From positions 1-20,809 of IMG/VR virus record IMGVR_UViG_3300044645_000797: 20,809 bases of DNA. The stretch is one strand, 5' to 3'. This DNA comes from a virus. Below, piece by piece: positions 913 through 17,398 of the stretch. How positions within the stretch are numbered: the stretch's first letter is position 1; each line of letters starts with the position of its first letter. The position numbers were made by a program, and so were the translations under genes. The notes beneath the pieces are model-generated. The model was not told where the DNA came from. It ran no database searches and saw only the letters and a program-made list of their open reading frames with translations.

Positions 913-2151
913 ATGGCTTGTCCCAATGTCTTCAACGCCTTCGCCGTAGCGACTGAGTCGCTCGCGCAGGACGTCTATAAACGCGCCTCGTATCGCTCGA
1001 TGTGGCTCAATATGATTGAGCGCGGAGAGTATCCTCAAGGTACTGGCTTGACCCAGACCTCGTTCACCACCACTTCCATCGAGCCGACTGCGGCTGAGGA
1101 GTGGTCGGCTATCACGCTCGCCAGTGGCGAGAACGGTGGCGCTTGCGATGTCACTTACAGCGAGGTTCCGGTCGGCTATAATGCCGTTACTTGGAGTCCT
1201 GAGCGTTTCGCCCTCAAAGGTCCGCTCCTGTGTAAGGACGATCTGACCTTCGACCATCGCGTCGAGGCGTTCTTGCGCGTGTACTTGGAGAAGCTCTCGA
1301 TCCGCGCACAGCGTTCATGGGAAACCCGCTATCAGAACACCTTCGCCAAGTTCGCCATCAAGGCTGTGGCCGACTCGTCCTTCACTCAGGTCGAGACGAT
1401 TCCCTCTGGCGTGAATGAGTTCCCGTGGATTCAGACCGGATCGGCTGGTCAGGCGCTCAATCAGTCCACCTCTGAGTTGACTCAAGAGATGCTGGATGTC
1501 GCGGCTGCTACACTGATCCGTAACGGTGCGACGAATCCTGATAGCTCCGGTTTCATCTCGTACAGCAGCGATGGTCCGGTATTTCCGCTATATATCGGCT
1601 TGGAGGCTTCGCAGCGTATCGCTCAGAACAACCCCGCGTTCCGCGATGACTTGCGCTTCGCTGATCAGGGAAGTGGCGCTGGAGCGGAGTTGCTCAAGCG
1701 GATCGGTGCGAACCGGGTGATTAAGAACTATCGCCATGTGCCGAATCTGTTTCCGCCCCGCTTCACTTATGCTGGCGGCAAATACACGCTGGTGCAGCCG
1801 TTCACCAGTGCGAGCGGAACGAAGGGTACTGTGTTCAGCGTCAATTCGAGCTGGACGACCGCTCCGTACGAGGCTGCGTTCATCGTGACTCCGTATGTAT
1901 TCAAGAGCCACATCGTGCGGCCCGTCAATCGGGTTGGCGATCTGAGCTGGATGCCGACCAACTACATGGGCGAGTGGCAGTGGGTGACTGGTGCCTACAA
2001 GCTCGATGTGGATTGCGCCGATCCGCTGGAGAAGAAGGGTCAGCATTATGCTGAGTTCGTTCACGCAAGTGAGCCTATATTCACCAACCAAGGAATGACC
2101 ATCATCTTCCGACGTTGCACAGGCAGTTTAACCCAGATCATCTGCTCGTAA
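913..2151 (+). CDS. Major capsid protein (probable)
   Basis: This 412-residue protein has the size and character of a tailed-phage major capsid protein. It has an N-terminal helix-rich arm (FNAFAVATESLAQDVYKRASYRS), a segment GEYPQGTGLTQTSFTTTS around residues 38-55, a long central alpha/beta region, and a closing strand ending in an Arg-Arg-Cys pattern. I recognise the general pattern from phage capsid proteins but cannot align it to a named family by eye, so an HK97-like fold is an inference. It is followed immediately by an intrinsic terminator and preceded by a structured leader, as expected for a gene expressed at high level. There is no Shine-Dalgarno sequence before the ATG, only a T-rich run ending in CTCAAT. 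Its scaffold partner lies on the other strand at 6333-7514, which is unusual. An alternative role is another abundant head protein. Confidence 0.75.
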   Translation: MACPNVFNAFAVATESLAQDVYKRASYRSMWLNMIERGEYPQGTGLTQTSFTTTSIEPTAAEEWSAITLASGENGGACDVTYSEVPVGYNAVTWSPERFALKGPLLCKDDLTFDHRVEAFLRVYLEKLSIRAQRSWETRYQNTFAKFAIKAVADSSFTQVETIPSGVNEFPWIQTGSAGQALNQSTSELTQEMLDVAAATLIRNGATNPDSSGFISYSSDGPVFPLYIGLEASQRIAQNNPAFRDDLRFADQGSGAGAELLKRIGANRVIKNYRHVPNLFPPRFTYAGGKYTLVQPFTSASGTKGTVFSVNSSWTTAPYEAAFIVTPYVFKSHIVRPVNRVGDLSWMPTNYMGEWQWVTGAYKLDVDCADPLEKKGQHYAEFVHASEPIFTNQGMTIIFRRCTGSLTQIICS

Positions 2152-3355: not shown

Positions 3356-4468
3356 ATGTCAAAGCAAACCATCAATATCGGCGCATCGCCGAACGACGGA
3401 ACGGGGACGCCGCTGCGGACCTCGTTCGATTATACCAACCAGAACTTCACCGAGCTGTACACGGCTCTTGGAGGCGGCGTTGGTCTTCCCGGTGCGACGA
3501 CTCAAGTCATCTTCAATGATGGCGGAACGAATCTGGCAGGCGATGCCGGTCTGGTTTACAACAAGACGACCGATGCGCTGACCGTTGCCGGACTCGTCAC
3601 CGCTGGCTCCGCCGCCATCACTGGCGATCTGACGGTGGACACCTCGACGCTGAAGGTTGATGCGACGAATGATCAGGTGGGTATTGGTACGGCGGCACCG
3701 ATTGCTGGTTCAAAACTTGATGTTCGCAGTGCGGTTGGAACTGGAATAGAAATTCAATCGCTTAATGTGGTTGATACATCTGCTCTTGCTATCAATAACG
3801 GTGGCGGATTGAGCATGGGTTATGTTTTCCTAGCTCCAAGCACCGTGATTGCCCGTGCGGGATGCATTAAGACAATCAAGGAAAACGCTACGGACGGTAA
3901 TTACGCCAGCGCAATGGTGTTTGGTGTTACCGCAAACGGAGTGGCAACCGCTGAACGGATGCGGCTCGACTCCACTGGCAACGTAAAAATAGCCAACGGT
4001 AACTTGGTAATGTCAACGTCCGGCAAAGGCATCGACTTCTCCGCGACTGCGGACGGCAGCGGAACGATGACCTCCGAGCTACTGAACGATTACGAGGAGG
4101 GGACGTTTACCGCTACGTTGAATGGAAGTGTTACTAATCCTGCAACTCTTTTAACAACAGTTGGTAAATACACTAAGATAGGCAGAACAGTAACTGCTCA
4201 GGTGTTTTTCTCAAATATAATTACTACAGGATATTCAGGAAGAATTTCCATTTCTGGATTACCATTTGCAAACGGAACTGTAGAAACCGTCGCAAGTGCT
4301 GGTTTTTACGGAGCAGCAACATTCACTGGATCTATTTTTGGATTGTGTACAGCATCTGGAACAGCTATTTCTATGTACTCATCTGTTTCTAACTCTGCAT
4401 TTGCCGATGTAACATTTAACCCCGGTTCTGTTCAATACATTTGGGCTAACTTAACCTACACCGTCTAA
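3356..4468 (+). CDS. Tail fibre protein, modular
   Basis: This 370-residue protein has the layout of a phage tail fibre. The N-terminus (SKQTINIGASPNDGTGTPLR, then an NFTELYTALGG segment) is a widespread phage fibre-attachment sequence. It is followed by a shaft of Gly/Thr/Asp-rich short beta repeats (residues about 50-125, with ITGDLTVDTSTLKVDATNDQ) and a middle beta region with an ERMRLDSTGNVKI segment. The LLNDYEEGTFTATL linker near residue 240 leads into a distal domain (about 250-370) that is probably the receptor-binding tip. The DNA for the tip is much poorer in G+C than the start of the gene (hand count: 114 of 300 bases at 4141-4440, against 139 of 240 at 3361-3600), which points to exchange of the tip. 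It is likely trimeric, by analogy with other fibres. Confidence 0.85.
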   Translation: MSKQTINIGASPNDGTGTPLRTSFDYTNQNFTELYTALGGGVGLPGATTQVIFNDGGTNLAGDAGLVYNKTTDALTVAGLVTAGSAAITGDLTVDTSTLKVDATNDQVGIGTAAPIAGSKLDVRSAVGTGIEIQSLNVVDTSALAINNGGGLSMGYVFLAPSTVIARAGCIKTIKENATDGNYASAMVFGVTANGVATAERMRLDSTGNVKIANGNLVMSTSGKGIDFSATADGSGTMTSELLNDYEEGTFTATLNGSVTNPATLLTTVGKYTKIGRTVTAQVFFSNIITTGYSGRISISGLPFANGTVETVASAGFYGAATFTGSIFGLCTASGTAISMYSSVSNSAFADVTFNPGSVQYIWANLTYTV

Positions 4469-4472
4469 TCAT

Positions 4473-4724
4473 ATGCTCACCGAACGCACCATATTCTCTC
4501 TCTGCGAGGTTCTTCCTTCAACCGTCCTTCAGGTTCGACTATCGGATCAGATCGTCGATGGCGAAGTCGTGAAGGCTTCCACCTTCCGCCGCTATTGCTT
4601 GCCTCCCGGCTCAGACCTTACGGGTCAGCCTGAACAGGTTGTAGCGATTGCCAACGCTGTCTGGACTCCTGCCGCTGTCGCAGCCTACGCCGCCGCTCAA
4701 ACCTCTAGCCCCACCATCCAATGA
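4473..4724 (+). CDS. Small conserved phage protein, copy 1 of a pair
   Basis: This is an 83-residue protein of unknown function. It has a beta-rich N-terminal half (FSLCEVLPSTVLQVRLSDQI) and the motif LPPGSDLTGQPEQVVAIANA, then VWTPAAVAAY. I recall the PG-x-x-L-x-GQP...IANA-WT pattern from small proteins next to phage tail fibres. It starts four bases after the fibre gene stop and overlaps the next gene by ATGA, so the three are probably translated together. It may be a fibre chaperone or a small tail subunit; this rests on position only. Confidence 0.6.
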   Translation: MLTERTIFSLCEVLPSTVLQVRLSDQIVDGEVVKASTFRRYCLPPGSDLTGQPEQVVAIANAVWTPAAVAAYAAAQTSSPTIQ

Positions 4725-5005
4725 TCGTACCAGTCAACATTGTCGCAGTGCAGTGCAACCAGAACAACTCGCTGTTCGTGACGACCGGCGTTGATTACGA
4801 CAACAGCGGTTCGATTGTGGGTTCTGAGATTACCTCGCAATACACATTGAACCCCGGTGACTCGCTGGAAGGGCAGCCAACCGAGGTTGTGAATATCGCC
4901 AATGCGCTGTGGACTTCGGCAGTTGTGGAGGCTTACAAGTTGGCGAATCCGGTGCCGGTTGTGGCAACGGCTGATTCGCTTGCAGAGGCTCCGCTCGCTA
5001 ACTAA
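4721..5005 (+). CDS. Small conserved phage protein, copy 2 of a pair
   Basis: This 94-residue protein is a clear paralogue of the preceding one. The shared core is LNPGDSLEGQPTEVVNIANA followed by LWTSAVVEAY, against LPPGSDLTGQPEQVVAIANA and VWTPAAVAAY. The N-terminal halves have diverged strongly; this copy has NIVAVQCNQNNSLFVTTGVD and a short Ala/Val-rich tail. Translation is coupled to copy 1 through the ATGA at 4721-4724. A tandem duplication followed by divergence is the simplest origin. Function is unknown; a fibre-associated role is inferred from the neighbours. Confidence 0.6.
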   Translation: MIVPVNIVAVQCNQNNSLFVTTGVDYDNSGSIVGSEITSQYTLNPGDSLEGQPTEVVNIANALWTSAVVEAYKLANPVPVVATADSLAEAPLAN

Positions 5006-5578: not shown

Positions 5579-5702
5579 GCCTGTGCGCCTCGCTGAAAGC
5601 GTTAAGGCAAAGGTTTGGGTGGTTGACTCTACCGGCAAAACGGTGCGCTCTCAGAACCGTATAACGCTCTCAGAAGGCTGGTACGCACTTCCTAAGCCAT
5701 GA
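5463..5702 (+). CDS. Lipoprotein-like protein, possible outer spanin
   Basis: This 79-residue protein starts inside the preceding gene in another frame. It has a basic N-terminus (MRKNN from the second Met, residue 6), a hydrophobic core (PILSAVCLLALMSMSV) and Ser-Cys28, which looks like a lipoprotein signal. The -3 position is Ser rather than Leu, so the lipobox is imperfect. The mature part is a small beta-rich unit (SRVIYVPHGEPVRLAESVKA, then KVWVVD and EGWYALPKP). I recall the YVPHGEPVRL and GWY-LP pattern from phage lipoproteins next to holins. It would sit in the outer membrane and pair with the inner spanin. Unlike lambda Rz1 it is not Pro-rich. The start at 5478 (second Met) is an alternative. 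Confidence 0.65.
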   Translation: MSQAKMRKNNPILSAVCLLALMSMSVSCASRVIYVPHGEPVRLAESVKAKVWVVDSTGKTVRSQNRITLSEGWYALPKP

Positions 5703-5857
5703 AAAAGAACGTCCCGACCAATACGTCGCTCTACAGCAAGATGAAGTCAGCGGCGAAATCGAAGTTCGACGTGTATCCATCCGCATACGCTAATGCTTGG
5801 CTCGTTCGCGAGTACAAGAAGCGCGGCGGCAAATACAAGGTTGCCAATGTCGGATAA
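5699..5857 (+). CDS. Tiny conserved phage protein, VYPSAYANAW motif
   Basis: A 52-residue basic protein opens at the ATGA overlap with the lipoprotein gene (5699-5702). The core SKMKSAAKSKFDVYPSAYAN, then AWLVREYKKRGGKYK, matches a pattern I recall in many phages and some large DNA viruses, in which a Lys-rich helix leads into a VYPSAYAN motif. Function is unknown. The high charge (many Lys) and the small size suggest a nucleic-acid or virion-binding peptide, possibly packaged. It overlaps the next gene by 11 bases. Conservation of the motif is my main reason for calling so short a frame. Confidence 0.65.
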   Translation: MKKNVPTNTSLYSKMKSAAKSKFDVYPSAYANAWLVREYKKRGGKYKVANVG

Positions 5858-6113
5858 AAAGGTCCGTGGCGGTCTAGGCCGTTGGTTCGCCGAGAAATGG
5901 GTGGACATCAAGACCGGCAAACCATGCGGTCGTCAGGAAGGTGAGGAACGCGCCGGATATCCAGCGTGCAGACCCACCAAGCGCGTGAGCGATAAGACCC
6001 CAAAGACGACGATGGAGATGAGCAGCGCGGAGAAATCCCGGTTCAAACGCGAAAAAACCAGTTTCCAGAAGATCGGTTACCAGCATAGGATGCGGAAGAA
6101 AGCAAAATTATGA
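5847..6113 (+). CDS. Small basic conserved phage protein, KWVD/CRPTKRV motifs
   Basis: An 88-residue, very basic protein. I chose the ATG at 5847, which lies inside the end of the previous gene, rather than an earlier in-frame ATG at 5793, because the recognisable family sequence begins with MSDKKVRGGLGRWFAEKWVD. Further motifs are KTGKPCGR, YPACRPTKRVSDKTPKTT and a Lys/Arg-rich tail (HRMRKKAKL). I recall this set from small proteins in many tailed phages. The conserved Cys pair (CGR and ACR) could bind metal. Function is unknown. Translation passes by ATGA (6110-6113) to the next gene. Confidence 0.7.
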   Translation: MSDKKVRGGLGRWFAEKWVDIKTGKPCGRQEGEERAGYPACRPTKRVSDKTPKTTMEMSSAEKSRFKREKTSFQKIGYQHRMRKKAKL

Positions 6114-6332: not shown

Positions 6333-7514
6333 TCAGCGTCCTAACGACTTCAGGACGTTCGTGACAAAGTCCTCGCTCTTCGAACCATTCGCATTTGATG
6401 CACGGGAGCCGCCAGCCGTTGCTTTCGAGCTAACACCGGGTTCACTGCCCCGATACTTCGCCAGTTCGGCTTGCAGGCGCTTGTTTACCTCGACCTGAGA
6501 GTAGAGAAGCTCGCGGTATTTGGGTGCGGCAGCGGCCCATAGAGCGGCCTTGGCGAGGTCTTCTTCGCTGTTCTCGCCGTTGAAGATCTGCTGCGCGAGG
6601 CTAAGTCGGCCAGTTAGTTCCGTGTTCCATTCGTCGTCGTTTTCACGCGGCTCAAAGATTTCCAGAGCGCGAGCGTTCTCGCTGACCTTTGTCCAAGTTT
6701 TATTGGCCGACTCCAGTGCAGCGCGAGTGCCTTCCTCGTTGTCCTGCTGGTACTTCGAAATGATCGAGTCGTAATCGGACTTCGCTTCGGACATCTCCGC
6801 AGACTTCTCGCCGTTAATCTCGTCGTACTTGACGATTAGAGCGCCAAGCTTTGCTTTCTTGGACGGAGAAAGACCCTCGACAATGTCGTCGATCTGCGAG
6901 TTCCGATAATCGTTCTCAGGAGACTTGAGTAGGCCAATAAGCCTGTCGCCGTCCGTGCCGACGACCGATTTCATCGAGTCGAACACGCCGGTAATCTTGC
7001 CTTCGTACTTTTTGACGAAGTTGGGATGGCGCTCAATGTCGAGGAGTCGAACACGTTCGGAAAGCGCGTCACGCTCCTCCTGCAAAGTCTTGAGCTGCGC
7101 TTCGAAGTTTGGATTGGCAACCTTGCCAGACTTCATCTCCTCAAGCTGCTTGGCCAACTGCGCCTTCTCTTCCTTGATCTTGCGAAAAGCATCAGCGGCT
7201 TTCGTAGATTTGATGGACTCAGGGATGCCAGAGTCATCAGTAGCCGAGGAATCCTCGGTAGCTGGAGCCTTCTCTTTCGGGCTGAACATCCGCTCGATAT
7301 CCATCTCAGACTTGCTGAGCTTGGTGTTCGCTTCGGACTTAGGCTGCGTTTGCTTCTTCTGCTTAGGCTCCTCAGTTACTTGCGAAGCTTTTGCACTAGC
7401 CTCTCCAGCGGCAGCATCCTCAAGAGTGTTAGCCTTGAAAGATTCGATAAAGGAGCTTTCGAAATCAGGCGTTTGCGCGGAGTTAACGGTCGGTGAGTTC
7501 AGTGGTTCTTCCAT
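6333..7514 (-). CDS. Head scaffolding protein (probable)
   Basis: This is a 393-residue, highly charged, largely helical protein at the end of the terminase-portal operon, the usual place for a scaffold. Residues 1-100 are acidic and low-complexity. Residues about 105-162 (AADAFRKIKEEKAQLAKQLE, then LKTLQEERDALSERVRLLDI) form a coiled coil. A helical middle region follows. The C-terminus (GSRASNANGSKSEDFVTN, then VLKSLGR) is a flexible linker with a short amphipathic basic helix, as in scaffolds that bind the capsid shell through their last helix. It guides capsid assembly and is then lost. It starts six bases after the previous stop with no Shine-Dalgarno sequence. The missing piece is a capsid gene downstream: that gene lies on the other strand. 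Confidence 0.8.
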   Translation of the reverse strand: MEEPLNSPTVNSAQTPDFESSFIESFKANTLEDAAAGEASAKASQVTEEPKQKKQTQPKSEANTKLSKSEMDIERMFSPKEKAPATEDSSATDDSGIPESIKSTKAADAFRKIKEEKAQLAKQLEEMKSGKVANPNFEAQLKTLQEERDALSERVRLLDIERHPNFVKKYEGKITGVFDSMKSVVGTDGDRLIGLLKSPENDYRNSQIDDIVEGLSPSKKAKLGALIVKYDEINGEKSAEMSEAKSDYDSIISKYQQDNEEGTRAALESANKTWTKVSENARALEIFEPRENDDEWNTELTGRLSLAQQIFNGENSEEDLAKAALWAAAAPKYRELLYSQVEVNKRLQAELAKYRGSEPGVSSKATAGGSRASNANGSKSEDFVTNVLKSLGR

Positions 7515-7520
7515 AAAATG

Positions 7521-7853
7521 TTAGTATTGTTTTTCAAATGTTGCTTCAGGTTCTCTCGTTGTGTCGGTTACTGCAAGTTTTCGAATGTTTTCGAGGCAAT
7601 GAGCGTAGCCAGCGGTTACACCGGCAGCGAAAACAATGTCCGATTCCTTGCTTCCTTGGGAGGGCATAGGCACCGGCATCGACTCAGCCACGATGCGTAA
7701 AGCCATCCGAAGAATCGGATTTCGCAAAATAAGCGCAAGTTCGCCCTGTTGGCCAGCCGTTGTCCATTCGAGAATGTCTACTTCAGGCAAGTCCATCAGA
7801 CTTTTCGCCATCTCCTTGCGGTTCTTCGTCGAGCCTCTTAGCCAGTTCATCAT
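7521..7853 (-). CDS. Small unknown protein between propeller and scaffold genes
   Basis: A 110-residue protein that I cannot assign. A hydrophobic-helical centre (ALILRNPILRMALRIVAE) is followed by a Met/Pro linker (SMPVPMPSQGSK) and a helix FAAGVTAGYAHCLENIRKLA. This plan is seen in small proteins of phage head operons, but no function is known to me. The frame from 7853 overlaps the end of the beta-propeller gene by 71 bases. An internal ATG at 7811, directly preceded by AAGGAG but with no spacer, would cut the overlap to 29 bases. The start is therefore uncertain. It may be a head-completion or scaffold-associated factor. Confidence 0.6.
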   Translation of the reverse strand: MMNWLRGSTKNRKEMAKSLMDLPEVDILEWTTAGQQGELALILRNPILRMALRIVAESMPVPMPSQGSKESDIVFAAGVTAGYAHCLENIRKLAVTDTTREPEATFEKQY

Positions 7854-9138
7854 ACTTTGATTTCTTGTTTCGTTTTAGTTTATGTCTCTGCGGAATTGGA
7901 TCGAGAACTTCGTCGAGTTTGATTGGGTTCTCTTTGTTGACGACGTCACGCTTGGGTCGAATCACCTTCGTCACCTCAAGCAAGTCGGCCAACGGAATCT
8001 TGATGTAACCGCAGTCCACATCGTTGATTCCGTACGAGACGACGAACTTATTCTTTGCGGTATCGAAGAATGCGCCGCACGGGAAGACGACCGCAGGCAA
8101 TCCCGGCCACCAATCCTGCTGATTCGTTCCAGTCAGAAGCGGCAACGTCGTCATGCGGACGATGCGGAAAGGCGGCTTCGCCTCGAAAGCGTAGGCACCC
8201 ATGTAGTAACGGCGCTTCTTGTTGATCCACGGCAGCGAGCTGTGGAAGAAAGTCCAGTACAAGCCGTCGCATAGGATCGGATTGGAGCCTCCGCGCACCT
8301 CGCCAAACTTCCAGAGCGGATTGAACTCGTCGGTGACGTATTCCTCCTCCTTCTCTAAACGCCCATTAAGGCGTACAACGACGTGAGGATTGGCCGAATA
8401 CACCATGTGTGGCGCGTTATCGTGGACGAAGTAGAGCCAGTTCTTCTCATGCCCATCGTTGATCATGGCCTGCGCGTAGTTGTTGCCGTAGATCATGTCG
8501 AAACGGCCTACGTTCAGGAAATGCTTGTCCAGAAGGAACATTCCTTGGTGCGCGTAGCTCTTGAACGGGACGAATGTGCAGCACGCAAGCCCGTACTTGT
8601 CGCCGAATTTGAGGACGCGAGGGTCTTCGAACTGTTCGAGGGGGTAATGGGAGATTAACTGGGTCAAAGACTTCTTTGTGGCGCGAAGATCCTGACTCAG
8701 TTCGAATATGACGATGTCATTTTTCTCGATGTAGACATCCTCGTCCTTCTCGCGCTTGTTACGGCAGCGACGGGCAAAAAGCATGATTCGACCATCTGGT
8801 TCGAGCATGATTGCCGGGTTGAAGTAGTACGTCCCCGTTTCCTGCGGCAGGACGATTTTGCCAGTCTCCCAATCGGTTTGTTCACTCAGCTTGGGGACGT
8901 CATTTTTTGCGTAGCTCATTAGAAACTCGGCAGCGAATTTGATTTCATCGTAGAGGGCAAGCCAATGATCGCGCTCCTCGCGGACCTCGGTCAGATGCTC
9001 GTCATGTTCTTTGGTTCGAATCTCAAGCGTTTTGCGAAGGTCTTCGATTTCCTGAAGAAGATCCGCCGGACCATCGCCGCCCGTTGCAAATCGTTTGAGT
9101 GCCTTGAGGGACAGGCTTCGGATTATGTCTTTCATCAT
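7783..9138 (-). CDS. GH130-like five-bladed beta-propeller protein with coiled coil
   Basis: This is a 451-residue protein. Residues 24-60 are a coiled coil (LLQEIEDLRKTLEIRTKEHD). Residues about 100-395 look like a five-bladed propeller of the glycoside hydrolase 130/43 type: FNPAIMLEPDG (106), EDPRV (171), NWLYFVHDNAP (233), RGGSNPI (282), MGAYAFEAKPPF (313), VFPCGA (351), SYGINDVDCGYIKI (368). GH130 enzymes cleave mannosides by phosphorolysis or hydrolysis, while related propellers only bind glycans; which applies here is not shown. The last 50 residues are charged and probably flexible. The gene follows two glycosyltransferase genes, overlapping the second by ATGA (9135-9138), so it probably acts on or binds the same glycan. 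The coiled coil suggests an oligomer or tethering to the virion. Confidence 0.65.
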   Translation of the reverse strand: MMKDIIRSLSLKALKRFATGGDGPADLLQEIEDLRKTLEIRTKEHDEHLTEVREERDHWLALYDEIKFAAEFLMSYAKNDVPKLSEQTDWETGKIVLPQETGTYYFNPAIMLEPDGRIMLFARRCRNKREKDEDVYIEKNDIVIFELSQDLRATKKSLTQLISHYPLEQFEDPRVLKFGDKYGLACCTFVPFKSYAHQGMFLLDKHFLNVGRFDMIYGNNYAQAMINDGHEKNWLYFVHDNAPHMVYSANPHVVVRLNGRLEKEEEYVTDEFNPLWKFGEVRGGSNPILCDGLYWTFFHSSLPWINKKRRYYMGAYAFEAKPPFRIVRMTTLPLLTGTNQQDWWPGLPAVVFPCGAFFDTAKNKFVVSYGINDVDCGYIKIPLADLLEVTKVIRPKRDVVNKENPIKLDEVLDPIPQRHKLKRNKKSKYDELAKRLDEEPQGDGEKSDGLA

Positions 9139-9764
9139 GGATACAAGTTTGTGTTCTCCTGCGTAGCTAACCTTGGAAGAACCCCGTAGAAGTTCATCCT
9201 TGGCATTGAATCGACCAGCATCTGGATGTCGATTGGTGCCCAGACCTTTTGATTCGTTTCGAGGAGCTTACAAACGCCCTCGTAATTTACAAGATATGCG
9301 TGGGTACACATGCCTCTCACCAGTTTGTAAAGGTTTGATGCGATGTAACCGTGGTCTTCGATGGGGTCGGTGCAGCAACTTCCAAGGTAGACGACGTGCC
9401 AGTCATTCGGCAGAAACTCAAGGTTGTCGTTGGCCTTTGCTTTCCAGTTCTCGTCAAGAAACTCAACGTCATCCTCGACGATCAGGAAGGTGCGATGATC
9501 GGTTACCTTTGATTCAACCATCCACTTGATGGCCGACCAAACGGAGAAGTGACTAAGTCCGGCGACGATGGTCTTGCACTTCGCCTTTTCCTTTTCGCGA
9601 GTGTGATAGTAGTCGGTTGAGATGCCGCAGTTATGCGAACGAAAGCCGTAAATCGGAACCGCATCGATTCCGAATGACTTCATGTATCTGATGCACCGCT
9701 TCTCTTTTTCGCCCTCAGGTTTTGAGACGATGAAGGTCGGTGTATTCTCGAAATCAACTTTCAT
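9135..9764 (-). CDS. GT25-like glycosyltransferase, copy 2
   Basis: From the ATG at 9764, which forms an ATGA overlap with the methyltransferase gene, the protein has 209 residues. Features typical of glycosyltransferase family 25: an N-terminal strand (TFIVSKPEGEK), AGLSHFSVWSAIKWM around residue 68, the metal and donor-binding LIVEDDVEF (94-102), LPNDWHVVYLGSCC (118-131), CTHAYLV (153) and APIDIQM (176). Members transfer sugars to glycans or to hydroxylysine from nucleotide-sugars. A longer frame starting at 9809 lies mostly inside the upstream gene and is unlikely. It is a clear paralogue of the enzyme at 10356. The acceptor could be a virion protein or a host surface glycan; context favours a virion link. 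Confidence 0.75.
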   Translation of the reverse strand: MKVDFENTPTFIVSKPEGEKEKRCIRYMKSFGIDAVPIYGFRSHNCGISTDYYHTREKEKAKCKTIVAGLSHFSVWSAIKWMVESKVTDHRTFLIVEDDVEFLDENWKAKANDNLEFLPNDWHVVYLGSCCTDPIEDHGYIASNLYKLVRGMCTHAYLVNYEGVCKLLETNQKVWAPIDIQMLVDSMPRMNFYGVLPRLATQENTNLYP

Positions 9765-10351
9765 CGGTTTGGAAGGATGTAGATGATACCACGTCGCGCA
9801 CCCGTGCATCGGCTCGGATGATTGTAGTAGTAGCTATAGCCATAACGCTGAGTTAAAGTTTTAGCCCTATAAATAGCGTCTAGCTTCTCTTTGACGTATC
9901 CAAAACATATTTCATGCTCTTTGTAAGCGTCGTAACCAAGCTGTCCGGTGGGTTCTTTGAAGTCGTGGATTGCGATGACTGGATGAATATCGAACCGATT
10001 GATAGCCTCAAGCTCTTCGAGAAGCGGTAGATAGTCGTTCCAATGCGCGTCGAGAAAGAAAATTGTGTCGTGTCCAACCCCGTGATGCGGGATGAACCAG
10101 TTCATACAGGCATCGCTGCTACCTTCGAACATCTCGACGTAGACATTCTCGCGCTTGAACCGCTCCTTCGCCTTCTCAACCCGATCATTGTCAAGTTCGC
10201 AGGAAACCGTCTTCAGGAAGTTCTTGGCCAACCAGATGGTTGTATCACCTTCGTGCGTTCCTGTTTCGACCGCAGTCGTAAGCTCGAAGCGTTCCTTGAG
10301 GTAAAGAAACTCCTGCTCAATGAATGTGTCTCCGTTGAATGGTGAACCCAT
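9761..10351 (-). CDS. Class I SAM-dependent methyltransferase, copy 2
   Basis: This is a 196-residue Rossmann-fold methyltransferase. Motif I is AVETGTHEGDTT (27-38). The acidic end of strand 2 is CELD (51-54). FFLDAHW (98-104) and IAIHDF (126-131) follow. The LDAHW and HDF pattern is that of small sugar- or peptide-modifying methyltransferases. It probably uses S-adenosylmethionine to methylate a glycan or protein made by its neighbours. It lies between the two glycosyltransferase genes, four bases after one and overlapping the other by ATGA. It is only distantly similar to the methyltransferase at 10963, so the two are probably not recent duplicates. Confidence 0.75.
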   Translation of the reverse strand: MGSPFNGDTFIEQEFLYLKERFELTTAVETGTHEGDTTIWLAKNFLKTVSCELDNDRVEKAKERFKRENVYVEMFEGSSDACMNWFIPHHGVGHDTIFFLDAHWNDYLPLLEELEAINRFDIHPVIAIHDFKEPTGQLGYDAYKEHEICFGYVKEKLDAIYRAKTLTQRYGYSYYYNHPSRCTGARRGIIYILPNR

Positions 10352-10355
10352 AGTT

Positions 10356-10958
10356 TTAGTCGGCTAAATTCATTCCCTCTTGGTCGGCGACACGCGGGAA
10401 AATTGTGAAGCAGTTGAGGTGATGCTTGCTGTTGAAATACATCTGCAAATCAATCGGAGCGTAAATTTTCTCGTTCGTCTCGATTAACGTCTTCAGCGCC
10501 TTCTTTCGGACAACGTAGCAGTGGGTGCAGAGCGGCATCCCCTCGAACAGATTGGAATCATACTCACGGCTAATCTTGCCGTGAACGCAGCATGAGCCGG
10601 GATAGAGCAAATCCCAGTTCTCAGGAAGCTTGGTTAGAGCGCGTTCAACCGTCTCGCGCCAGTTCGGCCTGAACAAGATGTCATCCTCAAGCACCATGAC
10701 CATGTCAGGAGTGTTTGGATCAAACTCTAGGGCGTTCCAGAGCATCCAATGCGACATCGTGCATCCGACATGCTTGTGGCAGATTGTGTATCCAGAGCCG
10801 GGGTTATCGACCTCGTACGGAATGCTGGCCTTTAGCCCAGACTTCTTCCCATCAAGACCATAGAAAATCCGATAGCTATTGATTCCAGCGGATTCAAGGT
10901 TTTCTTTTAAGCGCGGGATGCGAGAAGAACCTCGCACCGTGATAACGACCGTTTCCAC
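10356..10958 (-). CDS. GT25-like glycosyltransferase, copy 1
   Basis: This 200-residue protein starts at GTG, four bases after the preceding stop; no ATG fits as well. Family 25 glycosyltransferase signs: an N-terminal strand (VVITVRGSSR), CTMSHWMLWNALEF (66-79), MVLEDDILF (88-96), LPENWDLLYPGSCC (111-124), CTHCYVV (144-150), APIDLQM (167-173) and a QEGMNLAD end. The acidic VLEDD is expected to bind metal and nucleotide-sugar. Compared with copy 2 it keeps the GSCC, CTH and API-D motifs almost unchanged, so both come from one ancestor. Sugar donor and acceptor are unknown. Confidence 0.75.
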   Translation of the reverse strand: METVVITVRGSSRIPRLKENLESAGINSYRIFYGLDGKKSGLKASIPYEVDNPGSGYTICHKHVGCTMSHWMLWNALEFDPNTPDMVMVLEDDILFRPNWRETVERALTKLPENWDLLYPGSCCVHGKISREYDSNLFEGMPLCTHCYVVRKKALKTLIETNEKIYAPIDLQMYFNSKHHLNCFTIFPRVADQEGMNLAD

Positions 10959-10962
10959 GGGG

Positions 10963-11580
10963 TTACTTTAACTTTCGATAGATGGCAAATACGCTCTCGT
11001 TAAGGTCAAATCGCGAAATAAATTCGCAACGCTTGAGGACGAACTTGAGGGCTGTCTGGGTTGAATCCCAGTTCACATCGTCCATGACCAGATAGCCGCC
11101 AACCTTTAGCTTGGGGAGCCAGTTGACGACATCGCTCGTAGACGGCCATTCGGCGTGATTGGCATCGATGTGAACCATGTCCATGTCGGGCAGAAATCGC
11201 GATGCGTCCCACGAAGACATGCGACAGAACTGAATGTTTTTCACGACTCCAGCGCGAACTGTGTGTTCAACAAAAGCCTCGTAGTGCCTGTCCAGATCAA
11301 GCGTAGCCCACCACTCTTGATTCGCAGTAGACTCGTCATCGATGCAGTCCTCTTTCTTCCAAGAGTCGATGGCGTAAACGGTTCCGCTTCCGTTGAGCTT
11401 GCATGCGTAGGCTAGAGCAAGCGTTGACTTGCCTTCAAAAACGCCTACTTCAGCAATCCTTTGAGGCTTTGATTCGAGGACAAGCTTGGCAATTTCAAGC
11501 CCCTTTTTCGGATCGCACCATCCTCCCATTTTAGGGAACTGATCGGCGATGAATTGAGCGACATTTTGTTCGTTTTCCAT
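10963..11580 (-). CDS. Class I SAM-dependent methyltransferase, copy 1
   Basis: This is a 205-residue methyltransferase of the Methyltransf_24 type. Motif I is IAEVGVFEGKST (42-53). Asp72 in VYAIDSW is at the end of strand 2. MVHIDANHAEW (135-145) carries the motif IV Asp, and GGYLVMDDVNW (161-171) follows. Enzymes of this type methylate sugars, small molecules or proteins and are common in surface-polysaccharide loci. It begins three bases after the portal stop, with AGGGA seven bases before the ATG, one of the few Shine-Dalgarno-like sites in the window. It opens the glycan-type module inside the head operon. The acceptor is unknown. Confidence 0.8.
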   Translation of the reverse strand: MENEQNVAQFIADQFPKMGGWCDPKKGLEIAKLVLESKPQRIAEVGVFEGKSTLALAYACKLNGSGTVYAIDSWKKEDCIDDESTANQEWWATLDLDRHYEAFVEHTVRAGVVKNIQFCRMSSWDASRFLPDMDMVHIDANHAEWPSTSDVVNWLPKLKVGGYLVMDDVNWDSTQTALKFVLKRCEFISRFDLNESVFAIYRKLK

Positions 11581-11583
11581 ATT

Positions 11584-13833
11584 TTATCCCTGACGCGACA
11601 AGTTGGATTCCGCAGTTGCATTCGCACGCTGAATATCAGCGGTCGTCTTCGCATTCCGGCGTGACAAATCTGCCATCGCCTTCGTGTTCTGACGCTGGAT
11701 GTTGGCCATAGTCTCGGCGTTCTGGCGAGCGATTTTCGCCTGAACCTCCGCGTTCATTACGGCGGTACGAGGATCAGAGCCTTGCTGAATCGCCTGAGCC
11801 TGCTGCTGCTGAGCCATCGCTTGCTGCTGCTCTTGGAGCATCTGACCAAGCTGCTCGACGGTCTGCCCGAGCATTCCGAGCTGTTGGACGTACGCATCGA
11901 CCTGCTGCTTGCGCGACGGATCGGTTGCGAGCCTCTGGATGTGCTGCTGAACATGCTGACCAATACCCTGCATGAAGAGCATGATTTCCTCTGGGTTTCC
12001 GCCACCTTGAAGCGATGACGCTGCTTCGTTCGCCGCGCCAAGGTGAGTCTCGATGTGGATGATCTGATTCTGCGTATCGGTGACGAGCGGCATGTTGCCC
12101 TGACGCAGTGATGCGTGTTCCAGAACGGCGAGAGCGGCTTGATCCTGCGTACGAGACGACTGAAGCTGAGATGGCAGATAACGATCCACCATCTGTTGGC
12201 CAACCTGTGCGGCAATATAGTCCTTGAGCAGGTTAATTTTGCCTCCCTCTGGAAGCGAACCGGACAACTGGAGAAGCGAACCGAGGAGCTGTTGCTTAGC
12301 GAACTGTGAACCTTGGCCCACAGTCCTAGTCGCCTCAACGTAGTCGATGTCGATCATCGCCTGCACAGGAACGCCACGTTCTTTGCATCGACGCTGGAAC
12401 TCGATGGCGTCCTTATCGGACTTCGTAATCGGGTTCAGATTAGGATTCGAAGCGCGGTTGTACCGCTCCTCAAAGAAGGAATCGAGCTGAGTGTAATACC
12501 GGCTCAACTGCGTCTTGCCGATGGCGGACTGCTGCGAGACGATTGCTTGAACTTCCGTCGCTGTACGGGGGTTGCCCTGCGGTTTGTTGAGCGATTGGCG
12601 ATACTGAGAGAGATTGCCTTGAAGAACATTTTCAAGGTCCGCATTGACCGCCATTGGAGCATCCAGAACTCCAGCAATATTCTGCTGAACGACTTCGTAA
12701 TCTGGCGGAAGAATGGCATACGGTCCTTGCTGTACGACGCTTGTCTTGCTCAGCGCATTGGCGTTCAGGGGTCGGAATAGAATCTGAGTCCTCGCAAACG
12801 CGCTGTCTACCATTGAGCAGCGAAGACGATTCTTTAGCTCCATCGGCTGAAGCATCTTGATGCCCAAGCCCTTAACGCCGTGATGCTCGCCGTCGCCACG
12901 GTCGTAGTACATCGGATGAATGACCTGCTCCCACCGGCTGAACCGGCGAAGCTTGCGATACATAAAGCTCTCGCTGTCGCGTTCGTCGATGATTACATGG
13001 CTGATCTGACCATCAAATTCCTTGTAGAAAACGTGGCACATCAGCACGACCTCGGAACGAGCGGAAAACGTGATGTCGTTTGAGCGAAGCTGCTTCTGGA
13101 AGAACTCCCAGTCGTACTGAACACCTGAGCGATACGGCTCAGGCATCGCCGCACGAATGCGTTCGCGGACATAATCGACATCCCAACCGGAAGCTTTTGC
13201 CGCCTTTTCGTCTTGGATCTTCTCGAACAGATCATCCACGCCCATGCGCGTACGGACGCAGGCTACCTTCCAGTCGCTCACGTTTGACTTAGTGCCGTCT
13301 GGGACAAGCAAGTCCGTCGCCATGATGGCTTTGCAGCGCCAGTTGGTATTGTCCTCGAAGATCAGCGGACCATCGCCAATAAGGACCATCTCACGCTGCG
13401 AGAGCTGCATGATGTAGTCGAAGTCCTTGTCGAGCTTCTGGAGCCGGTCAAACTCTTCCGTGATAATCTTCGACCATTCCTCCCGCTTATCCATGTCATT
13501 GCCGTACGCGGTACGAATGTTCGTGTAGGTCGGAACCTCGGCGAACACGTCGTAGAAGGCTGACATTGCCAGCGTGAGGAACGCTTCCGACTCGCGGAAG
13601 TTGACGTTGGTGCGGAACGCTTGGTTGTTGCGGCGCAGTTCTGCTGGATTGTACGGAGGATTTCCATCGACCAGACCGCGCAGCTTGGCTCGCGTACTAT
13701 TACGCAGCTCATCAGCCATGATAAGCTTCTGGAAGATTTCGCGAGCGGATGCCGCGTCGGCTATGCGCGTTTCAGGCGCTTTGCCGTCTTCGTTGATAGT
13801 TTCAAGCGGCAGTTGGGCTAAGTTTCCGTACAT
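11584..13833 (-). CDS. Portal protein
   Basis: This 749-residue protein lies downstream of the terminase and matches the large portal proteins of short-tailed phages. The body (residues about 30-590) has the usual mix of helices and the long wing and stem region, including YNPAELRRNNQAFRTNVNFR near 60. From about residue 655 it becomes Gln-rich (EQQQAMAQQQQAQAIQQ). It ends in five 11-residue units (693-747) of the form x-N-A-x-x-x-A-x-I-x-R, which should form a long helical barrel reaching into the head, as in P22 gp1. The portal is the dodecameric DNA gate and docking site for the terminase. Its start overlaps the previous gene by 16 bases, so the two are translated together. Confidence 0.9.
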   Translation of the reverse strand: MYGNLAQLPLETINEDGKAPETRIADAASAREIFQKLIMADELRNSTRAKLRGLVDGNPPYNPAELRRNNQAFRTNVNFRESEAFLTLAMSAFYDVFAEVPTYTNIRTAYGNDMDKREEWSKIITEEFDRLQKLDKDFDYIMQLSQREMVLIGDGPLIFEDNTNWRCKAIMATDLLVPDGTKSNVSDWKVACVRTRMGVDDLFEKIQDEKAAKASGWDVDYVRERIRAAMPEPYRSGVQYDWEFFQKQLRSNDITFSARSEVVLMCHVFYKEFDGQISHVIIDERDSESFMYRKLRRFSRWEQVIHPMYYDRGDGEHHGVKGLGIKMLQPMELKNRLRCSMVDSAFARTQILFRPLNANALSKTSVVQQGPYAILPPDYEVVQQNIAGVLDAPMAVNADLENVLQGNLSQYRQSLNKPQGNPRTATEVQAIVSQQSAIGKTQLSRYYTQLDSFFEERYNRASNPNLNPITKSDKDAIEFQRRCKERGVPVQAMIDIDYVEATRTVGQGSQFAKQQLLGSLLQLSGSLPEGGKINLLKDYIAAQVGQQMVDRYLPSQLQSSRTQDQAALAVLEHASLRQGNMPLVTDTQNQIIHIETHLGAANEAASSLQGGGNPEEIMLFMQGIGQHVQQHIQRLATDPSRKQQVDAYVQQLGMLGQTVEQLGQMLQEQQQAMAQQQQAQAIQQGSDPRTAVMNAEVQAKIARQNAETMANIQRQNTKAMADLSRRNAKTTADIQRANATAESNLSRQG
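11593..11757 (-). repeat. Five 11-residue repeats at the portal C-terminus
   Basis: The last part of the portal consists of MNAEVQAKIAR, QNAETMANIQR, QNTKAMADLSR, RNAKTTADIQR and ANATAESNLSR, followed by Gln-Gly. The period of 11 is that of a hendecad helix with a slight right-handed supercoil. The DNA copies have diverged, so the repeat is old or held by protein-level selection. Confidence 0.8.
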
Positions 13834-14447
13834 GGTCGTTTTTTCCAGCAGTGAGCCGGAAGGTTTTCGTTCTCTGTAGCGTCCGAGAATTTATGAAGGG
13901 TTTCAATGGGAAACCAAACCATGCTTCTGATAAAGCAACCGCAAAACTCGCAGCTTTGCAGGTTTTCGTCTACCGGAGTGCTGCCGTGTTGAGAGAAAGT
14001 TTTGACAGCATCCTTTAGCACACGGGCGTTGCATCCTGTGCATCCGAGTGGTTTTCGGTTGAACGAACAAGTTGAGCAGATGCTTGCGCGTCGATTTGCT
14101 TCCGCCTGATCCACCTTGCCGCCGCCAACGGTAAGTCCGTGGAGAAGACTCATGCTGAACCGAATGACGTCTCCGATCTGAAGCGATTTACGTCCTTCTG
14201 GCTTGGGAATATTAACTTCGTTGTAAGAGCAATCAGCACCGTTACGACACGCATATTCGGTGATTAAATCGTCAAGGTTGCTCGGGATTTGAATCGCGTT
14301 TGCCGTGTAGTGATTGCGAACAAACTCATGGAGCTGCGCCCATGATCCTCCGGGTACTTCAATCCCAGTCTCAGGAATGCGGTAATGCCATCCGCCGGGG
14401 ATGACCATGTGTTCGTTCAGAACTTTGTAACCAGTGGTTTTGCTCAT
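13818..14447 (-). CDS. Cys-rich zinc-ribbon-like protein between terminase and portal
   Basis: This 209-residue protein begins in an ATGA overlap with the terminase (14444-14447) and overlaps the portal start. Residues 20-60 hold GGWHYRIPETG and a helix LHEFVRNHYTANA. Then come the Cys sets C124-x-x-C127, C136-x-x-C139, C166-x-x-C169-x-C171 and C200, plus C67 and C73, enough for two zinc sites. The PAHCW-K end is distinctive. I recall proteins of this plan (an RxPETG start, CSTC, CTGC, CGC and AHCW) in the same position in other phages, with no known function. Being made with the terminase and portal, it may be a packaging cofactor, perhaps the missing small terminase role; that is inference. 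Confidence 0.7.
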   Translation of the reverse strand: MSKTTGYKVLNEHMVIPGGWHYRIPETGIEVPGGSWAQLHEFVRNHYTANAIQIPSNLDDLITEYACRNGADCSYNEVNIPKPEGRKSLQIGDVIRFSMSLLHGLTVGGGKVDQAEANRRASICSTCSFNRKPLGCTGCNARVLKDAVKTFSQHGSTPVDENLQSCEFCGCFIRSMVWFPIETLHKFSDATENENLPAHCWKKRPCTET

Positions 14448-16144
14448 GCTTCAATTGTTTCGTCGTAGTAAATTGAATCTGCGTCCTTCACTAGCTTTTC
14501 CCAGACCTTATCCATCTTCGTAAAGCGCGGCTCCAAAACAGCAGTTTTGCGGACTAGATCAAGCAAGACTACAGCAGCGTCGGCCAAATCAGGCGATTTT
14601 CCGGTTCGCTGCTTCATCACGGTCTTGGATTCGACCGATATTTTTCGCTTGGAATCATCGAACATACGGGCGCAAAACTCCTGCAACGTCTCGATATCCA
14701 TGCCTCCAAGGCGCTCTTCAACGGCCCATTTACGCATCGAGAACCAGAGTTCCGTTACCTTTCTATCGTAAGCCTCATTGCATGGCCTACTGTCCTCGTC
14801 GCTGACAGGAATCGTTGATGGCGAGCCACCGAACTCAACGCGATGAATTACACCCCATTCGCGGGTCAAGATGTCAGCCAACCCACCGCCTTCACCGCTT
14901 GAATCCAGACCAAATTTGTCCGGTGGAACGCCGCGCTTGTTGCATTCCTCTTTAACCCGATTGGCTATCTGGTAATGCACCGGCTCCGTTAGTTGAGCGT
15001 TGACGGATATATGGATGATGTCCTGAAAAAGTATGCTGACCTTGTCGTTTGCGGTGCCAACCTTGGCAAAGCGAAGGATACATCTGTCGCCACCAAAGCC
15101 CGGATCAAGACCGGCAACGATTTGTACATTGGTCGTAAACACCAAACTTTTTGTAGGTGTGTGCGTCTCGATCAGCGATTCGGACAGAACCGTCTTGACC
15201 ATGCCGTCCGGCGACCAGAATCCGCGTGTGTACTTCCAAAACGTAGGGCTTTGCTCGCCCTCATGTCGCATAGCCGACAAGACCTGATCCTGAGTAATGA
15301 GGTACGGATACTTCGTGCGCCCCTCGCTGATGTTGGGCGACTTCATGCCGTCAAAGCGTCGGCACATCCCGCGTTCTGTCAGCCAATGTTGGTCTTCAAT
15401 CGTTACGCTGCGCCAACCCTTTGCCGGTGTGCAGAAGCGTCCATGCGGATCAAACTTTGAGGCGGGGTTTCCGATGACCAACATCTTGAACTCGCGGCAA
15501 CCCTTAGAAAGGTTCGTACACGCTTCGAAAGCCGCTTCAGGCGTATCCGTAGCTTCGTCGATAATAACCATCACACGCTCGGCGTGGATGCCCTGAATGT
15601 TGGCCACAGCCTTCGATGTGTTGCCCTCGGCGACGGCGATAGCCGAAATGGAGTGTCGGTCGTCTCCTTTGATGGCTTGAAGACTCATCTTCGAATCGAC
15701 CATGTTTCCGGGGAATCCGCGTGATTTCCGAACAAGATCCTGAAGATTGGCCCACATACGCTTTCGGATCATCTTTGCCGTTGTAGACGTGAGAACAACG
15801 GTTGTTTTGGACGGGTTGGCCAGCCACCAAACAGTCGCAAAGAGCGTCGCGCCGAAAGTCTTTCCGCTCGCGCCGCAACCTGCCCATCCGACGTAGTCGT
15901 GTTCGCAAAGACCTTCGACCTGTGCTTCGAGCCACGGGTTCCAGCTCATCTTCGGCCATAACATTTTCGTGGCGTTACGAAAATGATCGAAAGTACCTAG
16001 TCCGCCCTCATTCGGTTGGAGCCGATTTCGGAATGCGTAGAGTTCCAGTTCTAGGTCTGGAATCTTGACGGGCGAACGAATCCCGTACTTGTGGTCGATC
16101 AATGGATGCTCTGACACTTGCTCTGGCATAGTTTGGCCTTGCAT
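14444..16144 (-). CDS. terL: Terminase large subunit
   Basis: This ATPase-nuclease pumps DNA through the portal. I use the ATG at 16144 (566 residues). A start at 16195 would overlap the divergent fibre gene, and one at 16129 has a weak AAGG seven bases upstream and is equally possible. In the numbering from 16195 (subtract 17 for this start), Walker A is GCGASGKT (106-113), Walker B is VMVIIDEATD (208-217), and the coupling motif region is MLVIGNP (238-244). The nuclease domain carries Asp364 (AGLDPGFGGD), Asp431 (FGLDSSGEGG) and Asp536/539 (SPDLADA), the expected metal ligands. The C-terminal tail is basic and should contact the portal. No small terminase is recognisable nearby. It heads the minus-strand head operon. 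Confidence 0.93.
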   Translation of the reverse strand: MQGQTMPEQVSEHPLIDHKYGIRSPVKIPDLELELYAFRNRLQPNEGGLGTFDHFRNATKMLWPKMSWNPWLEAQVEGLCEHDYVGWAGCGASGKTFGATLFATVWWLANPSKTTVVLTSTTAKMIRKRMWANLQDLVRKSRGFPGNMVDSKMSLQAIKGDDRHSISAIAVAEGNTSKAVANIQGIHAERVMVIIDEATDTPEAAFEACTNLSKGCREFKMLVIGNPASKFDPHGRFCTPAKGWRSVTIEDQHWLTERGMCRRFDGMKSPNISEGRTKYPYLITQDQVLSAMRHEGEQSPTFWKYTRGFWSPDGMVKTVLSESLIETHTPTKSLVFTTNVQIVAGLDPGFGGDRCILRFAKVGTANDKVSILFQDIIHISVNAQLTEPVHYQIANRVKEECNKRGVPPDKFGLDSSGEGGGLADILTREWGVIHRVEFGGSPSTIPVSDEDSRPCNEAYDRKVTELWFSMRKWAVEERLGGMDIETLQEFCARMFDDSKRKISVESKTVMKQRTGKSPDLADAAVVLLDLVRKTAVLEPRFTKMDKVWEKLVKDADSIYYDETIEA

Positions 16145-16183
16145 TAGTTCTCGCTGGACTTGACGGTCTGGCAAAGGAAAAAT

Positions 16184-17395
16184 ATGCCGTCGCAACTTGT
16201 TTCTTCAACCGGCTGTTGCCAGCCTTGCGATACCGTTCCGGTTGTCGTGAATGTCCCCGGACCACAGGGTGCTGCGGGTACTAACGGAACGAACGGCGCG
16301 AACGGGGAAAATGCGTTCTCGTATACGACCGCGTCGTTTGTAGTTCCAACTTTTGGAGCATCGGTTGTCGTTGCGGTTGCAAACACTTCGTTTCTTCCAG
16401 AGTCGGTTGCTGGACAATTTTTTGTATCGGTTCAGGGATGCGGCTACTTGCAGGTTACATCGGTAGACGGTTTGCTGGTAACCCTACAAAACCCACTTGC
16501 AGGCGTTCTTGGAATCCCAAATGCGATTCCTACGACGGTGATTCCTATTGGTTCACTTATCACGCTGTCGGGTGCAATTGGCGCTACGGGTGCGGCAGGA
16601 GCGTCTGGCGGAGCATCCTCCGCAGCGACGTACATTGTTCGAACTCCCGACGCATCGGTTCCAAGCGCAACGGCGCTCAATTCGTTTTCATCTGGTTATC
16701 TCAAGACTCAAGGGTCGAGCGGATCTGGGTTTCTATCGACCGTCGCAACGGTTCCTGTGGGCGATATTAGCGGCGTGTTGCCGGTTGCAAACGGCGGAAC
16801 GAACCTATCGACCGTACCTACCAATGGCCAACTGCTCATTGGCAATGGAACGGGATACACGCTGGCAAGTCTGACGGCAGGATCGAACATCACGATTACG
16901 CCGGGTGCTGGCACCATCAGCATTGCATCGACGGCCAGCGGAGCAGCGTTCAACTACGTCACGTTTACGCGGAGGGTGACTGGTCTTGGAGCTGCAAATG
17001 CCCCGAATGTCAGTTCAACTTCGGCAAGCAATCCATACAGCACATCTGTTTACACGACAGCGTCTTACGCTGGCCTTGATTCAGCTTCTGGATTCACCGC
17101 TTCAAGCGGTCGGTTTACGGTTCCGTACACCGGATACTACAGAATAGACGCTTATTTCAATCTTGATGCGGTAGGAGCAACCGCAAACGTTACTGTTTTT
17201 ATCAGAAGAAACGGCTCTGATGTTTTAGCGTCAAAATCATTCGCTGTTACATCCAGTGGATACAATCCAGTATCTCTTGTTTATATTGATCAAGCAACCG
17301 CTCTAACTGATTTTTATGAGGTTTTGATTGGTACAGACCAAAATCTTTACGTCGATCAAGGCTCCTCATTCTCTGTCCAACGGATTCAGGCTTAA
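16184..17395 (+). CDS. Collagen-like tail fibre with C1q-like tip
   Basis: From the ATG at 16184, preceded by AAAGGA (the clearest Shine-Dalgarno site in the window), the protein has 403 residues. It starts with a Cys cluster (GCCQPC, 10-15). Then come six Gly-x-y triplets, GPQ-GAA-GTN-GTN-GAN-GEN (26-43), as in phage collagen-like fibre segments. A beta domain and a second Gly/Ala-rich stretch (GAIGATGAAGASGG) follow. Next is the common fibre sequence VANGGTNLSTVPTNGQLLIG. The last 135 or so residues (FTASSGRFTVPYTGYYRIDA, then NVTVFIRRNG) resemble a C1q/TNF-like jelly-roll tip, likely the receptor-binding trimer. The tip DNA has low G+C (hand count 70 of 180 bases at 17161-17340). Confidence 0.8.
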   Translation: MPSQLVSSTGCCQPCDTVPVVVNVPGPQGAAGTNGTNGANGENAFSYTTASFVVPTFGASVVVAVANTSFLPESVAGQFFVSVQGCGYLQVTSVDGLLVTLQNPLAGVLGIPNAIPTTVIPIGSLITLSGAIGATGAAGASGGASSAATYIVRTPDASVPSATALNSFSSGYLKTQGSSGSGFLSTVATVPVGDISGVLPVANGGTNLSTVPTNGQLLIGNGTGYTLASLTAGSNITITPGAGTISIASTASGAAFNYVTFTRRVTGLGAANAPNVSSTSASNPYSTSVYTTASYAGLDSASGFTASSGRFTVPYTGYYRIDAYFNLDAVGATANVTVFIRRNGSDVLASKSFAVTSSGYNPVSLVYIDQATALTDFYEVLIGTDQNLYVDQGSSFSVQRIQA

Positions 17396-17398
17396 GCC

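Follow-up and report, generated by a model that had tools for sequence, protein, structure and literature searches.

Exchangeable glycosyltransferase and methyltransferase sets beside a conserved GH130 gene suggest a modular glycan-synthesis system in uncultured water phages

The window analysed in this study, a viral fragment from IMG/VR, 20,809 bases long (IMGVR_UViG_3300044645_000797), carries a cassette of two methyltransferase (MT) and two glycosyltransferase (GT) genes, designated MT1, GT1, MT2 and GT2, followed by a gene for a GH130-family protein. Among close phage relatives, such GT/MT sets are swapped as entire blocks at gene junctions. The locus probably represents a modular phage glycan-synthesis system, anchored by GH130 and supplied with exchangeable GT/MT sets, whichever acceptor is decorated. 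More tentatively, a GH130 core with swappable GT/MT modules, common to unrelated lineages, may give similar virions different sugar coats.

To characterize the locus across the lineage, relatives were retrieved from IMG/VR, with up to the best 80 loci listed of 160 confirmed portal relatives, 137 confirmed GH130 relatives and 211 confirmed terminase relatives. Gene content was compared over 70 distinct portal-to-GH130 intervals, and alignability over 73 deduplicated contigs. Glycan genes occupy the interval in 70/70 distinct relatives spanning it; the rare conservation at this position that an earlier note had named as grounds for rejecting its interpretation was thus not observed. The same note had regarded the genes as one assembled pathway. 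The 70 intervals instead resolve into at least nine arrangements drawn from six families (GT25, GT32, GT-A and three methyltransferases), identifying a swap site, with GH130 as part of the constant frame. The window type, MT1-GT1-MT2-GT2, is found in 23 intervals and GT32-MT3-MT1-GT1 in 18, followed by GTA-MT2-GT2 (8), GT32-MT3-GT1-MT1 (8), MT1-GT1 (4), GT32-GT1-MT1 (4) and three further, rarer arrangements.

Terminase, portal, GH130, a 110-aa gene and the scaffold gene were alignable in 93–100% of the contigs, compared with 53–71% for the cassette. In backbones 92–96% identical to the window, nucleotide homology is lost at the portal stop codon (11577–11582) and regained at the GH130 start (9135), the upstream boundary being visible against backbones L013, L014, L016, L023 and L163. 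A second downstream boundary, at the MT2 start (10357), is used where MT1-GT1 alone is exchanged. Arrangements turn over quickly: one portal clade holds six and another five, and where two portals are 94–96% identical, the arrangement is the same in 26% of pairs, the chance background being 19%. The GC content of the swapped genes is 0.36–0.51 and that of the flanks 0.51–0.57. Since the GH130 gene was alignable in 100% of relatives and matches the backbone in GC content, it belongs to the frame, and the GT/MT genes constitute the exchanged part.

Each of the 70 cassettes contains at least one GT and at least one MT gene. MT2 and GT2 never occur apart (both present in 36, both absent in 34), while 60 cassettes contain MT1 as well as GT1 and 8 contain neither, a co-occurrence that would fit a sugar-then-methyl pairing rule. 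The cassette genes are under strong purifying selection, with ratios of nonsynonymous to synonymous substitution (dN/dS) of 0.06–0.11 in each, comparable to those of the portal and the capsid candidate. The previously described alternation of methyltransferases with paralogous glycosyltransferases accordingly holds as far as selected MT-GT pairs are concerned; GT1 and GT2, however, are only ~30% identical and therefore do not represent a recent duplication. Three GT25 subfamilies with mutual identities of ~30% were distinguished, each bound to particular arrangements, and MT1 comprises two subfamilies that are ~33% identical.

The enzymatic assignments rest on profile and structural comparisons. 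MT1 scored 72.7 bits against PF13578 (cut-off 26.3), and its profile matches the O-methyltransferases 2hnk and NovP (2wk1), the latter a sugar O-methyltransferase. GT1 scored 51.9 bits against PF01755 (GT25), above the gathering score of 24. Its AlphaFold2 model (pLDDT 91) has its nearest solved folds in COLGALT1 (Foldseek E 4e-14), mimivirus R655 and bacterial beta-1,4-galactosyltransferases, and its sequence profile likewise points to COLGALT1 and R655. The model displays the GT-A fold and, together with alignment A4, in which EDD is invariant, the acidic metal motif expected of GT25. GT2 reached 21.5 bits against PF01755 in the window, under the cut-off of 24, which several of its homologues exceed. 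No membrane-like or hydrophobic segments were found in the cassette proteins.

The GH130-family protein scored 43.0 bits against PF04041, above the gathering score of 26, and retains the EDPR motif, whose Asp172 is invariant in ten phage GH130 sequences from several lineages, including that of the window. We take Asp172 to be the catalytic residue. The PF04041 domain and the EDPR-type catalytic Asp motif are shared with the GH130 beta-mannoside phosphorylases Lin0857, UhgbMP and their relatives, from which the phage proteins differ in scoring far under equivalog cut-offs, in bearing a coiled-coil-like extension or GT-B fusions, and in lying within GT clusters. Among 50,697 deposited phage records, no close relative of the window GH130 was detected, the sole match being partial and 26% identical (E 9e-3). 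The protein also matches phrog_28262 ("unknown function"), which may itself be a GH130/GT-B fusion.

The association of GH130 with GT/MT genes extends beyond the window lineage, to unrelated, large phages of T4 type. The third GT25 subfamily was used as a query, followed by the GH130 alignment, yielding 13 contigs without the window terminase or portal. All 13 carry a GH130 homologue (41–48% identical to the window lineage over ~220 residues) followed by GT and/or MT genes; one of them, of 124 kb, has a T4 Gp23 match. A GT-B (Glycos_transf_1) domain lies N-terminal to GH130 within a single protein in L378:2252-4690 and L382:323-1798 according to Pfam, and the same fusion was recognised by alignment in L380:2622-4676. 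Two contigs with backbones 98–99% identical, L384 and L385, differ in content, one having a GT25 and the other MT1; this MT1 is 83.6% identical to one from the window lineage, though the GH130s are 41–42% identical. GTA is likewise common to the window lineage and L390 (65% identity). As judged from these sequences, single modules travel between unrelated phages, and the feature conserved across lineages is the association of GH130 with GT/MT genes and not a position among head genes. Within the GH130 cassette of L392, a sulfotransferase (PF03567) is encoded at 12581-13156, so decorations beyond methylation probably occur. In a bacterial relative (L459:6967-10419), a single frame of 1,150 aa joins the GH130 domain to a polysaccharide pyruvyl transferase and adjoins a polysaccharide-export gene; as this genome has a GC content of 71%, the frame may overrun at its ends.

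Most of what is known of the GH130 family concerns degradative phosphorylases, and a trimming role had been proposed for the window protein. The GT-B fusions in phages and the one bacterial pyruvyl-transferase frame beside a polysaccharide-export gene make a synthetic role more likely than trimming. In the system we propose, soluble enzymes would use host sugar nucleotides and S-adenosylmethionine (SAM) to produce a short methylated oligosaccharide. On a shared core, GH130 may perform the common step by mannosyl transfer or by phosphorolysis, with the variable GT/MT pairs determining the outer, identity-giving part of the glycan. RecT-type recombination of the phage, acting via the conserved flanks, could power the swaps. 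Glycosylation of a virion protein from the same operon would then alter the "serotype" of the particle surface.

Several observations weigh against this interpretation. MT2 is recognised weakly (PF13649, E 0.003), although 8/12 of its homologues match. GH130 falls far under the NCBIfam mannobiose-phosphorylase equivalog cut-offs (41.4 versus 550 and 33.6 versus 450), and its AlphaFold2 model, built from 11 close homologues, is poor (pLDDT 36). In T4-type phages, the cassettes adjoin DNA polymerase and clamp-loader genes, that is, replication genes, and not head genes. Within portal clades, cassette type is linked to GH130, scaffold and p615 alleles, and its association with fibre, collagen-like, p265 and capsid-candidate alleles is not significant, so no substrate is singled out. 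Physical linkage may explain the association with GH130 and scaffold.

As to the acceptor, we lean slightly towards a virion protein of the same operon as the most likely target. The earlier note had drawn a virion product from the placement among head genes; because the same GH130 and GT/MT set occurs beside replication genes in unrelated phages, this placement alone does not imply one. A virion target is favoured because the cassette always lies within the assembly block in the window lineage and because, apart from the cassette, strong variability in the window is confined to fibre-like, collagen-like and small genes. The hypervariable stretches comprise 3500–5000 (the fibre C-terminus and two small genes), 5700–5950 (a 106-aa gene), 16900–17400 (part of the collagen-like protein) and 19750–19970 (the p265 gene), the remaining genome being conserved. 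The hypervariable part of the fibre-like protein is 0–2% alignable in relatives. In the collagen-like protein, part of the C-terminal half is hypervariable, and the GPQG..GTNGTNG run is conserved and contains no lysine.

Viral precedents also favour a virion target. In mycobacteriophages, phage-encoded glycosyltransferases place glycans on capsid and tail-tube subunits (Freeman et al. 2023, via excerpts of PMC12619734 and PMC11256854). The window system resembles them in encoding its own glycosyltransferases; in these excerpts, the mycobacteriophage system is described without a GH130 anchor, methyltransferase pairing or a swap cassette, and its glycan has been demonstrated, whereas that of the window is predicted. 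Similarly, A064R of PBCV-1 combines a virus-encoded GT with a methyltransferase and makes a methylated capsid glycan, but it is one fused protein of an algal virus, with no GH130 mentioned, in contrast to the exchangeable separate genes of the window (PMC7019647). COLGALT1 and R655, nearest to GT1 in both fold and sequence, recall the window in that it too encodes a collagen-like protein, but the setting differs in that the window collagen run lacks lysine. In the paper describing R655, its acceptor is unproven (PMC9546862). A hydroxylysine-collagen model, with GT25 acting on collagen-like lysines, was dropped on account of the lysine-free run and because no 2-oxoglutarate oxygenase was seen in the genome of one near-complete relative.

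Alternatively, the cassette might remodel a host surface glycan during infection (lipopolysaccharide (LPS) core or capsule), blocking superinfection or releasing progeny from debris. GT25, GT32 and GT2-like enzymes are frequent in LPS and capsule synthesis, soluble enzymes would suit LPS-core assembly, the bacterial GH130 relative adjoins a polysaccharide-export gene, and T4-type phages carry the cassette outside the head region. We nevertheless consider this role unlikely, given that the cassette includes no flippase, polymerase or membrane protein, that its site is fixed within the assembly block of the window lineage, and that no tyrosine integrase was found in any of nine long genomes, which dismisses lysogenic conversion. 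Gtr-type serotype conversion, a property of temperate phages with the membrane proteins GtrA, GtrB and Gtr, was rejected on the same absence of integrases and of hydrophobic segments.

Glycosylation or methylation of phage DNA as protection against restriction is a considerably weaker candidate, and we regard it as improbable. It would accord with the frequent action of phage glycosyltransferases on DNA and with the cassette's location in the replication region of T4-type phages; however, a thymidylate-synthase-type base hydroxymethylase (PF00303) was present in 0/9 window-lineage genomes, ThyX alone being found, the closest structural matches of GT1 are enzymes with protein or glycan substrates, and several fast-swapped GTs together with GH130 differ from known DNA-modifying sets. 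A search for TET was silent in window-lineage genomes and equally in controls. Least probable of all is that the swap site is a hotspot for moron-type cargo whose genes have no joint function: the low GC relative to the flanks and the varied gene content are compatible with it, but all 70 cassettes hold GT and MT genes only, mostly paired, purifying selection on them is strong, and the GH130 association recurs in unrelated phages.

The window genes form a single, tightly spaced minus-strand run in the order terminase, 209-aa protein, portal-like protein, MT1, GT1, MT2, GT2, GH130, 110-aa protein and scaffold-like protein (Table 1). Open reading frames and Pfam matches agree with the five glycan and methyl-transfer genes reported at 7783-11580 on this strand, including their order and spacing (gaps of 3, 4 and 4 bases, then two ATGA overlaps), and the GT2 start was corrected from 9809 to 9764, the position at which it and the MT2 stop share an ATGA. 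Their stated position between portal and scaffold is right, although both labels are positional: the portal-like protein has no convincing match in Pfam, PHROGs or PDB (profile search) or to the MW202879 portal, and the scaffold-like protein none in Pfam or PHROGs. Taken as a whole, the earlier interpretation is partly supported. MW202879, whose terminase is 25% identical, gives the same order, with a 740-aa portal after the terminase; there, a 62-aa open reading frame alone separates portal and scaffold, and glycan genes are absent. The capsid candidate and the scaffold-like gene of the window lie on opposite strands, ~4 kb apart; in MW202879 they are adjacent.

Table 1. Coordinates of the swap site, its flanking genes and candidate substrates in the window.
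Feature	Position	Strand	Remarks
Terminase large subunit	14444..16195	-	phrog_2, E 1.4e-23; constant frame, found in every spanning relative
Cys-rich 209-aa protein	13818..14447	-	ATGA overlap with terminase; conserved, constant frame; function unassigned
Portal-like protein, 749 aa	11584..13833	-	Labelled by position and size; constant frame
MT1, class I SAM O-methyltransferase, variable module	10963..11580	-	PF13578
GT1, GT25 glycosyltransferase with EDD motif, variable module	10356..10958	-	PF01755
MT2, putative SAM methyltransferase, variable module	9761..10351	-	PF13649 in 8/12 homologues
GT2, GT25 glycosyltransferase with EDD motif, variable module	9135..9764	-	PF01755
GH130-family protein, N-terminal coiled-coil-like extension, constant anchor gene	7783..9138	-	PF04041
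110-aa protein, constant frame	7521..7853	-	Conserved; lies between the genes for GH130 and the scaffold-like protein
Scaffold-like protein, 393 aa, charged	6333..7514	-	Labelled by position, as in MW202879
Upstream exchange boundary at portal stop codon	11577..11582	.	End of nucleotide homology
Downstream exchange boundary at GH130 start	9135..9142	.	Nucleotide homology resumes
Collagen-like virion protein candidate, possible substrate	16160..17395	+	Conserved GPQG..GTNGTNG run
Major-capsid candidate, 412 aa, conserved, possible substrate	913..2151	+	Inferred; no family match
Fibre-like protein	3356..4468	+	Matches phrog_677/9942; C-terminal part hypervariable

The window lineage is a common, uncultured group of water phages, whose longest contigs mostly measure 43–47 kb. 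Compared with deposited phages, the portal, the capsid candidate (both against the 50,697 records), GT2 and MT1 had no significant match. A near-complete relative of 43.5 kb encodes ThyX, a DUF3799 nuclease with RecT and an AAA_25 protein. Sixteen long contigs carry one or two GT25 genes each, in agreement with cassette content. One 4.8-kb lineage contig (L229) was binned in a Nitrosomonadales metagenome-assembled genome, a host hint too weak to be used here.

In bacterial O-antigen and capsule loci, constant flanks enclose exchangeable sets of GT and modifying genes. The phage swap site shares this architecture but differs in residing in a phage and in showing no genes for a flippase, a polymerase or the synthesis of nucleotide sugars. 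Our literature search, which covered few subscription papers, returned no description of a GH130-anchored phage system, and to our knowledge only a few phages have been found to carry glycosylated particles. The findings point to a biosynthetic role for one GH130 branch, and cassette exchange among close genomes supplies natural matched pairs for probing the role of phage glycans. If the proposed system is correct, the sugar coat would be a variable trait like the O-antigen and could affect adsorption, surface binding and recognition; by this analogy, the swapping of sugar coats would be a viral counterpart of bacterial serotype switching.
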